NCBI GenBank assembly: GCA_028706735.1
Contig: JAQTVS010000057.1
Location: forward strand, 1 to 11,812
DNA from: Thiomonas sp.
GTDB taxonomy: Bacteria > Pseudomonadota > Gammaproteobacteria > Burkholderiales > Burkholderiaceae_C
DNA length: 11,812 nucleotides
Direction of reading: 5' to 3'
Shown here: piece after piece, positions 2,375 through 6,799 of the stretch
How positions within the stretch are numbered: the stretch's first letter is position 1
How the letters are laid out: every line of letters starts with the position of its first letter
Notes under the pieces: model-generated
What the model was told of the DNA's origin: nothing
Database searches by the model: none
Seen by the model: the letters and a program-made list of their open reading frames with translations, nothing else
Position numbers and translations under genes: made by a program

Positions 2375-3583
2375 TTACAACGCGCGGGCGATGAGCATGT
2401 TCTGCACGTCGCTGGTGCCTTCGTAGATCTGGCAAACCCGCACGTCGCGCCAGATGCGCTCCACGGCAAAGTCTTCCACATAGCCGTAGCCGCCGTGAAT
2501 CTGCAGGGCGGCGCTGCACACGCGCTCGGCCATTTCGCTGGCCAGCAGCTTGGCCATCGCCGCCTCCTTCAGACAAGGCTGGCCCGCGTCTTTCAGGCTG
2601 GCGGCGTGCCACAGCAGTTGCCGCGCGGCCTCGATCTGCGTGGCCATGTCGGCCAGACGGAACTGCACCGCCTGATGCTCGAACAGCGGCTTGCCGAAGG
2701 CGCTGCGCTCGCGGGCGTAGCGCAGCGCGGCGTCGAACGCCGCACGCGCCATGCCCACAGCCTGCGCCGCAATGCCGATGCGTCCGCCCTCCAGCCCGGA
2801 CAGCGCGATCTTGTAGCCCGCACCCTCGGCGCCGATGCGGTTTTCCGCAGGAATGCGACAACCCTCGAAGCGGATCTGCGCGGTGTCGCTGGCAGACTGT
2901 CCCGTCTTGTGTTCCAGCCGTTCGACGATGTAGCCCGGCGTGTCGGTGGGCACGAGGAAGGCGCTGATGCCCTGTTTGCCCGCGGCGCGGTCGGTGGCGG
3001 CCAGCACGATGGCGACCTGTCCGTTCTTGCCGCTGGTGATGAACTGCTTGACGCCGTCGAGGACGTAGTGGTCGCCATCCTGTGCAGCAAGCGCCGGGCC
3101 GCCCCAAGCTTGCTGCACCCCCTCGGGGGGCGAGGCCGGTCTGCCGGCATCAGGGGGCACATGCCTGGCCGTGGTGCGCAGGTTGGAGGCGTCCGACCCG
3201 GCCTGCGGCTCGGTCAGCGCGAACGCGCCGATCCATTCGCCGCGCGCCACCGGACGCAGCCACTGATCTTTCTGCGCGTCGGAGCCCCAGGCCATGAGGA
3301 TGGAGCACACCGGGCAATTGTTCACGCTCACGATGGTGCTGGTCGCGCCATCGGCCGCGGCGATCTCCTCGATGGCCAGCGCGAGAGACAGATAGTCCAG
3401 CCCGGCGCCGTCCCACTGCGTGGGCACGGCGATGCCCAGGCAGCCAAGCCCGGCCAGGCCGCGCAGCGCCTCGCGCGGGAAGCGGGCGACGCGCGCCCAT
3501 TGCGCGGCGTGCGGGGCGATCTCGGCCTGGGCGAAGTCGCGCACCGCGTCACGGATCATGCGGTGATCGTCATTGAGAAGCAT
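2375..3583 (-). CDS. Acyl-CoA dehydrogenase (short/medium-chain type) carrying an in-frame repeat-derived insert
   Basis: FAD enzyme that makes the alpha,beta-double bond in acyl-CoA, passing electrons to ETF. 402 residues. Visible motifs: N-terminal helical domain starting [19 protein letters not shown]; beta-domain FAD motif [10 protein letters not shown] followed by LRTTA to about residue 139; KQFITSG after residue 176; C-terminal IYEGTSDVQ with E388 as the probable catalytic base, as in SCAD/MCAD. Residues about 141-168 (Pro/Gly/Ala-rich, [15 protein letters not shown] onward) do not belong to the family. They are encoded by a copy of a palindromic repeat, and removing them leaves about 374 residues, the usual family size. 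The start was chosen by family N-terminus; no clear Shine-Dalgarno precedes it, and reading further upstream would translate a REP-like element. It is separated from the thiolase by 114 bp of that element. Substrate is uncertain: a short straight-chain or branched acyl-CoA. Confidence 0.93.
3096..3163 (+). repeat. Three-stem palindromic repeat, copy A, inside the acyl-CoA dehydrogenase gene
   Basis: About 65 bp that aligns with the element at 6709-6773. Both begin GGGCCGYCCCAAG and share CCCCC(T/A)CGGGGGGCG in the middle and GGGGGC at the end. Predicted stems are: outer 3101-3105 with 3154-3158 (GCCCC/GGGGC), hairpin 1 3118-3122 with 3126-3130 (CCCCC/GGGGG), and hairpin 2 3135-3139 with 3144-3148 (GCCGG/CCGGC, loop TCTG). 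Here it is translated on the minus strand without frameshift or stop. Boundaries are approximate; the edge with the host gene cannot be set without an uninserted homologue. Orientation is given as that in which GGGCCG comes first and is arbitrary. Confidence 0.8.
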
Positions 3584-3612: not shown

Positions 3613-3690
3613 GCTCCCCTCCCACACAGCGTGGAGGAGGAGCGGGCCACTCCCTCCCCATGCGTGGGGAGGGCTGGGGTGGGGAGTGTT
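3613..3690. repeat. REP-like double hairpin between thiolase and acyl-CoA dehydrogenase genes
   Basis: The 114-bp gap 3584-3697 is filled by a GC-rich element. Its right part is a perfect 9-bp stem (CCCTCCCCA at 3652-3660, TGGGGAGGG at 3665-3673, loop TGCG) followed by GCTGGGGTGGGGAGTG. Its left part is an imperfect stem (GCTCCCCTCCCAC against GTGGAGGAGGAGC). The format of paired hairpins with a GGGCTGGGGTGGGG tail is that of common bacterial intergenic REP-type repeats, from memory. Lying inside an operon, it may protect upstream mRNA from 3' exonucleases or attenuate expression of distal genes. There is no T-run for a standard terminator. Confidence 0.7.
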
Positions 3691-6687: not shown

Positions 6688-6708
6688 CGGATCTCTCAAG
6701 GAAACGTA

Positions 6709-6773
6709 GGGCCGTCCCAAGTTTTCTTGACCCCCACGGGGGGCGGGCTGGGCGCAGCCCGGCCCTGGGGGCG
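6709..6773 (+). repeat. Three-stem palindromic repeat, copy B, in the aceK upstream region
   Basis: Second copy of the element found inside the acyl-CoA dehydrogenase gene. Stems: outer GTCCC (6714-6718) with GGGGC near 6768-6772 (one G-U pair), hairpin 1 CCCCC (6731-6735) with GGGGG (6739-6743), and hairpin 2 GGGCTG (6745-6750) with CAGCCC (6755-6760), loop GGCG. A further GGGCC/GGCCC pairing (6709-6713 with 6761-6765) is possible. It starts 22 bp upstream of the aceK ATG and would lie in the aceK 5' leader if the promoter proposed at 6800-6828 is right. Confidence 0.8.
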
Positions 6774-6799
6774 CGCAGCAAAGCGAAGACGCTCTGCCC

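Follow-up and report, generated by a model that had tools for sequence, protein, structure and literature searches.

Residues 141–167 of an acyl-CoA dehydrogenase (ACAD) from a Thiomonas sp. genome are very likely encoded by a copy of a palindromic repeat of 78–83 bp that is probably mobile, and the translated repeat is predicted to form a disordered loop that is likely tolerated rather than useful. The repeat is spread through one large family of Betaproteobacteria, and in one genome ten proteins carry it in frame, an ABC ATPase and RecD among them with tandem arrays; relatives of the same genus have empty sites. Because matched protein pairs with and without the insert exist, tolerance, folding cost and the mobilising mechanism are directly testable. 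The finding also warns annotators that such segments of predicted proteins are repeat DNA and not domains.

The ACAD insert and its repeat family

The window, meaning the whole stretch of DNA that was analysed, comprises 11,812 nucleotides of Thiomonas sp. (assembly GCA_028706735.1, contig JAQTVS010000057.1), and its genome is called G000 below. The following features were located in the window.

2378–3583, minus strand: ACAD gene (short-chain, or butyryl-CoA, type), 402 aa, with the stop codon at 2375–2377
3083–3163, minus strand: in-frame repeat insertion of 81 bp, residues 141–167 of the ACAD, placed by the covariance model and the gap in orthologues
3108–3118, minus strand: 5' arm of the terminal stem, 11 bp, perfect in the ACAD copy, placed by sequence, fold and family covariation
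3082–3092, minus strand: 3' arm of the terminal stem, its last base lying one base beyond the insert, placed by sequence and fold
3118–3129, minus strand: second hairpin of the repeat, CCCCC-GA-GGGGG, placed by sequence and nearly invariant across the family
6696–6774, minus strand: intergenic copy of the same repeat, 79 bp, placed by the covariance model (85 bits, E = 4.3e-12), which used it as one of its building copies

The Pfam domains Acyl-CoA_dh_N, _M and _1 were all matched in the ACAD, and the best PDB match of its structural model was a Brucella butyryl-CoA dehydrogenase with 59% identity. The original prediction had placed a dispersed repeat in frame in this gene at 3096–3163. Its presence and frame were confirmed, while its extent proved to be 3083–3163; likewise, the predicted start of the insert at about residue 141 held, and its end, given as about 168, lies at residue 167. 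Without the insert the protein has 375 residues, in agreement with the expected usual size of about 374. The same length was found in the Thiomonas-named orthologues, one partial record excepted, and was read in six of the eight Thiomonas genes with an empty site (G002 and G004 being outside that count). Residue E388, which the original prediction took to be catalytic and intact, occupies a column that is invariant across 49 sequences.

A covariance model was built from 19 copies of the repeat with the ACAD copy left out. It found the ACAD copy at 3083–3160 with 70 bits and an E-value of 2.3e-9 over the whole genome. The two copies in the window were 79% identical over 47 bp without gaps (3086–3132 and 6699–6745). 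When the ACAD copy was folded as a single sequence (-46 kcal/mol, z -2.3), its GGGGG paired with the first CCCCC and not as in the second hairpin. No Rfam family was matched in the window at the gathering cut-off. A second type of GC-rich repeat, CTCCC...GGGGAGGG, was observed at 3615–3690, directly upstream of where the ACAD gene begins. In G000, many copies of the main repeat (L008, L010 and L011, for example) have sequence like it in place of their right half and so form composite units.

The genome-wide search yielded far more than the two copies compared in the original prediction. At least 133 matches at E <= 0.001 were identified in G000 with the covariance model (a lower bound, 150 candidates having been scored), and an initial BLAST search had returned at least 56 at the same threshold (40 of 132 candidates scored). 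This copy number is far above chance. In the family of the window's genome, 86 of 120 genomes were positive for the repeat, as counted with stricter filters and 39 scored candidates per genome. Plasmid records gave three partial DNA matches and zero protein matches.

Repeat units were mostly 78–83 bp long, with 81 and 78 bp the commonest lengths, and contained two internal hairpins, which are the palindromes seen in the repeat. Its features include the CCGGGCCGCCCCAAG loop and a hairpin of CCCCC-GGGGG. Read in the direction of the ACAD gene, the unit consists of GNGCCCCC, a variable hairpin, GCCCCCCGAGGGGG, and a terminal stem enclosing the conserved loop TTGGGGCGGCCCGGC. The arms of the terminal stem were highly variable (TGAGAAAAC/GTTTTCTCA and CAAGGAAAC/GTTTCCTTG; GCAGCAAGC/GCTTGCTGC in the ACAD copy) and stayed paired, with changes on both sides in seven of nine stem pairs. 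For both helices together, 96.6% of cells were paired. This outcome, stem changes included, was reached in none of 500 shuffles and by no slid control, in a test of 17 sequences whose structure was borrowed from one of them. The GC content was 0.76–0.78 in three ACAD copies of the repeat.

When the unit is read with its terminal hairpin first, CTC closed the left flank in 55 of 92 non-tandem copies, compared to a background of 1.3%, and the unit's own end was usually GCGCTC; the ACAD copy is preceded by CTG, not CTC. No terminal GTAG or CGTC was present among 127 flank rows of the repeat. Tandem arrays showed a spacing of 78–83 bp. Short arrays with this spacing were also seen at L177, L216 and L238 (G000 contigs C171, C300 and C370), where a divergent variant with CAAGAAACACGCCG, TAAGAAACACGCCG or ACGGGAACACGC ends also differs in its right end and is perhaps a sister family.

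Repeat copies in other proteins of the genome

The ACAD is not an isolated case: nine further proteins of G000 hold the repeat internally, so that ten proteins, the ACAD included, carry a total of 13 copies in an open frame. The survey covered up to 1.1 kb on each side of the 133 copies and searched for frames that were open through the repeat and coding-like on both sides. The ORFs for reading were picked by hand, and 23 of the 133 copies were translated. Besides the ACAD, the following proteins were found.

LivG-like ABC ATPase: three tandem copies directly ahead of the LLLLDEP motif
RecD: two copies
RsmD: one copy, with the Pfam match split in two
DUF1989 protein: repeat internal, with the Pfam match split in two
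P-type ATPase: repeat internal
GlcF: one copy, internal
GMC oxidoreductase: repeat internal
Polyketide synthase: repeat between the KS linker and the acyltransferase
PAS sensor: repeat internal, with Pfam support on one side only
MurI, a glycosyltransferase, TtcA, a DUF2889 protein and a patatin: five proteins with the repeat near an end

Names that go past the Pfam ones (such as LivG, RecD, GlcF, MurI and TtcA) are in part provisional. Judging from the reading frames, each host protein likely carries an extra loop of 26 or 27 residues per copy. In the sense of the gene, the hairpin end came first at nine of the ten internal loci, the ACAD being the exception among these few cases. When the translated LivG copies were used as the query, ten proteins were returned, the LivG protein itself included. 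The others included an asparaginase (assigned to Thiomonas sp. by NCBI) and an aldehyde dehydrogenase, each with two copies, a ferritin-like protein whose N terminus holds three, and a near-identical LivG (P0122) with two copies compared to three in G000.

Several candidates were dropped from the survey. The genes at C110, C297, C206 and C167 and the antisense frame at C66 were unconvincing, and at C104 the repeat precedes the likely start. A pair of copies on contig C15, lying between a methyltransferase-like and a permease part, was kept out of the internal list as ambiguous. At this locus (L149, 1–2157), one open frame joins the methyltransferase-like and ABC permease parts across two tandem copies; the two parts may be neighbouring genes, a fused gene or sequences joined in assembly.

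The length of the unit was divisible by three in 42 of 59 non-genic copies with full ends, 35 of which were 81 bp long. For in-gene copies with a complete end, 15 of 18 were multiples of three by the model's ends (19 were marked), and among the in-gene copies measured at 80 bp by those ends are the one in the ACAD, with its insert of 81 bp, and the two on C15, spaced 81 bp apart. The consensus unit was free of stop codons in three of six frames at 81 bp and in four of six at 78 bp. Given unit lengths that are multiples of three and these stop-free frames, roughly four in ten random insertions into genes would leave a readable protein.

Empty sites, history and effect of the ACAD insert

To compare occupied and empty sites, we used a group of 13 Thiomonas genomes including G000. 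The ACAD insert was present in four of them (G000, G003, G005 and G011) and the site was empty in eight, while the gene was split between contigs in G009. The eight empty-site proteins matched the window's ACAD as two blocks, from residue 1 to 140 (141 in G012) and from 167–170 to 402. The alignment with homologues thus showed the clean gap that the original prediction had expected, 27 residues long, and most orthologues lack the insert. The group is called Thiomonas because it includes G008, whose ACAD locus shows no difference along 3,702 bp from the locus of Thiomonas bhubaneswarensis DSM 18181 (L068).

Empty sites were checked for five genes, those of the ACAD, RsmD, LivG, GlcF and RecD, and were found for all five. 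Based on the ends of protein matches, RsmD was unbroken in 11 of the 12 other genomes (no orthologue was seen in G003), LivG in all 12, and GlcF in ten of 12 (G007 and G012 lacked an orthologue). The RecD site contained two copies in G000, one copy in G006 and G012, and none in G001, G005, G007 and G010. The DNA of the sites was read in four relatives for RsmD, three for LivG and three for GlcF, and none of these three genes showed a target duplication beyond a few bases. At RsmD, 78 bp had been added with a two-base overlap, CT. Because CTC is found on either side of many copies, and at both array ends in RsmD and LivG (GCGCTC at LivG), a target duplication of 2–3 bp is possible and would look the same as the unit's end. 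Since G005, with the ACAD insert, and G006, with a RecD insert, are two-contig genomes, an artefact confined to one metagenome bin does not account for the insert pattern.

The 27-residue insert was shared by the ACADs of G003, G005 and G011, which have 87–90% protein identity to that of the window, and by the metagenome proteins P0001, P0002, P0003 and P0016. Full-length carriers differed by 10–17% from the window's ACAD. Shorter forms with 13 extra residues (L065 and P0019) or 11 (P0024) look like eroded copies; P0019 is near-identical to L065 at the site and has three extra C-terminal residues. With the same insert in these other full-length carriers, and shorter forms besides, the earlier reading of the insertion as recent is not supported. 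L063, which has a full-length insert by protein, scored 15.9 bits with the covariance model (E = 0.73), and L065 had no match; the model match being weak or none, the repeat origin of these two is read from position and residues. With the insert as query at E <= 1, the protein of the window itself and P0001 were the only ones recovered, and P0120, P0002, P0003 and P0016 were all missed.

On a 54-row ACAD tree built without the insert columns, presence of the insert required ten changes, nine of them within the 41 rows on the Thiomonas side, and a single carrier clade was rejected (AU test, p = 0.0002). A single old insertion alone is therefore insufficient. The Thiomonas inserts have a common orientation, register and length, and those of G000, G003, G005 and G011, in which the repeat is clear at the DNA level, share a GCAAGC stem that is absent from the other 132 matches in G000. 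Because of these shared features, we favour one origin followed by precise loss, or by exchange or recombination between species.

Outside Thiomonas, few unbroken sites were found. Among the 150 matches listed for 349 family genomes, five genomes were unbroken across the site, three from Thiomonas plus G200 and G244. In G200, which belongs to another genus, the same ACAD hairpin holds an in-frame copy of the repeat that runs the other way round (46.8 bits, E = 4e-7 within 33 kb) and has its own stem, GTTTCACC/GGTGAAAC; on this reading of its sequence the hairpin was hit independently. At this hairpin (L287, about 1930–1960), G244 carries about 14 additional residues with no repeat match. P0120, which falls outside Thiomonas on the tree, is longer by 27 residues at this site that read repeat-like (VPP..PPPPEGV), and it is the exception among 13 outgroup rows in the alignment, the other 12 of which lack the insert. 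In 63 ACAD-locus stretches of other Burkholderiales, the covariance model gave one weak match (L104, E = 0.004).

Alternatively, the insert may have arisen several times at the same nucleotide in Thiomonas, the site being a target hotspot, a possibility that we consider real but on balance unlikely. The nine changes and the rejected clade would be expected from it, as would the independent insertion in G200, possibly a further one in the source of P0120, and the lower synonymous divergence of the insert compared to the rest of the gene (pS 0.22 and 0.37, respectively, from few sites). However, repeated insertion would have to produce the same orientation, register and length each time, and the private GCAAGC stem points to one origin.

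Once in place, the ACAD insert evolves almost neutrally. Among five carriers, pN/pS was 0.80 in the insert, compared to 0.17 in the rest of the gene, from which the three codons after the insert were omitted; the value for the insert is rough, with about 23 synonymous sites per pair and single-pair dN/dS ranging from 0.27 to 1.84. An AlphaFold2 model of the ACAD from 49 sequences (mean pLDDT 79.6, pTM 0.81) had a fold matching solved butyryl-CoA dehydrogenases. In this model, residues 147–149 and 151–168 had pLDDT values below 50 and were located between the strands 138–142 and 172–181, which is consistent with the predicted position at a turn of the beta domain. These observations fit a floppy loop that is tolerated by the enzyme, as the original prediction had supposed. 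A single-sequence model of RsmD reached a pLDDT of 37, too low to be informative.

Recruitment of the insert for a function, such as an interaction loop or stability at acid pH, would be consistent with the full length retained in several lineages, but it is improbable given the near-neutral pN/pS, the shortening in three rows (P0019, L065 and P0024, two of them near-identical) and the absence from close relatives.

The open frame and its conservation suggest that the insert is translated. Merging of neighbouring copies in G000 gave 102 arrays, of which 16 were too near the end of a stretch and 69 were without coding on both sides of one strand by our own coding score. The remaining 17 had coding on both sides of one strand, and 11 of these were open and in frame, three contained a stop and three a frame change. 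The strong hairpins, with the fold energy given above, and the six disrupted arrays would agree with an insert that is skipped by the ribosome, as hop elements are, or removed by splicing. We regard this as very improbable, since under skipping the 11 open frames would be needless, the common unit lengths preserve frame, and the six arrays may be boundaries of neighbouring genes or broken genes. Finally, the 27 residues have scarcely any chance of being an ancestral part of the enzyme that resembles the repeat in composition only: scattered carriers are also expected from many losses and one of the 13 outgroup rows has extra residues at the site, but the other 12 have none, unbroken sites are confined to the five among the matches listed, the DNA, hairpins included, fits the repeat model at E = 2e-9, and G200 carries the repeat there in the other orientation.

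Mobilisation and relation to known elements

At the filled sites, repeat units were probably gained and not lost. By analogy with IS200/IS605-type elements and the REPs of Escherichia coli, the repeat may insert as a folded single strand beside CTC, and a new unit would land behind the CTC that ends an old unit, so that tandem arrays grow. The likeness to these elements lies in the hairpin unit, the target duplication that is very short at most, and the short motif at both ends. A short target duplication would fit a classical transposase.

A Y1 transposase (PF01797) was considered as the mobiliser and rejected. Six of the 13 Thiomonas genomes and 88 of the 120 family genomes contain it, and it was unlinked to the repeat: both were present in 62 of the 120 genomes, the repeat only in 24, Y1_Tnp only in 26, and neither in eight (p = 0.82, Fisher's test). 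Seven of 24 genomes with at least ten repeat copies were without Y1_Tnp, and G005, G006 and G008 had 41, 58 and 36 repeat matches, respectively, and zero Y1_Tnp. At five Y1 loci, the covariance model gave one weak match (L249, E = 0.025). The sole Y1_Tnp protein found in G000 has 282 aa (L247, 1465–2313, contig C270), and no copy of the repeat was found along L247.

More tentatively, the repeat might be a frame-neutral coding transposon that, by virtue of its length and composition, writes linkers of 26–27 residues, single or tandem, into any permissive loop, with the ACAD loop hit independently across genera and orientations. If true, such a transposon would provide a natural linker-scanning experiment in these bacteria.

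Coding palindromes are best known from Rickettsia. The available part of one source describes RPEs as in-frame palindromic elements within Rickettsia genes (PMC10969869), and the Thiomonas repeat resembles them as a palindromic repeat found in frame in many unrelated genes. RPEs are about 150 bp long and are described from Rickettsia, while the Thiomonas repeat uses several frames and is tandem in some genes. For the coding repeat in Thiomonas, no earlier report was found in a literature search that covered few subscription journals.

Among shorter palindromes, the GTAG/CGTC REPs are 20–40 bp long and mostly intergenic, and in several species some lie in frame inside ORFs, single or grouped, encoding 20–82 aa; intragenic copies occur in recBCD genes too (PMC3733652, as far as its available text goes). 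The Thiomonas repeat is similar in its short palindromes, its mostly intergenic location, its in-frame copies in ORFs and its hit in a recBCD gene. Compared to those REPs as described in that text, its unit is longer, at 78–83 bp, holds two hairpins and lacks both terminal tags. According to the accessible portion of a further report, TnpA-REP enzymes cut at a CT dinucleotide 5' or 3' of the hairpin, with GTAG as the guide (PMC8266576). CTC often precedes and ends the Thiomonas unit, which resembles TnpA-REP and IS200/IS605 elements as portrayed there, but no GTAG beside the hairpin and no associated Y1 transposase were found. The repeat also differs from REPtrons (REPs with a RAYT), since no Y1 transposase gene was associated with it in the 120 genomes.

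The closest description is that of the Beta-proteobacterial repeat element (BRE), published in 2011, and the repeat family is probably BRE, matched by description and not by letters. In the part of that paper available to us, BRE is a GC-rich chromosomal element of 75–91 bp (about 90 bp) with at most 29 copies per genome, found in Bordetella, Polaromonas, Acidovorax, Delftia and others, Burkholderiales included, in a table that does not extend to Thiomonas (PMC3110155). Its units are tandem with few or no bases between them and vary in copy number per locus, and some copies lie wholly inside coding sequences (same part of PMC3110155), so the earlier view that such a coding repeat was undescribed in Burkholderiales is not supported. 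The Thiomonas repeat is likewise GC-rich, 78–83 bp long and betaproteobacterial (86 of 120 family genomes), and its tandem units also vary in number, with three in LivG of G000 and two in P0122, and with two, one or none in RecD. To the BRE description, as represented in the available part of PMC3110155, our analysis adds putative translated products, empty sites in genes, a candidate target motif and a fold.
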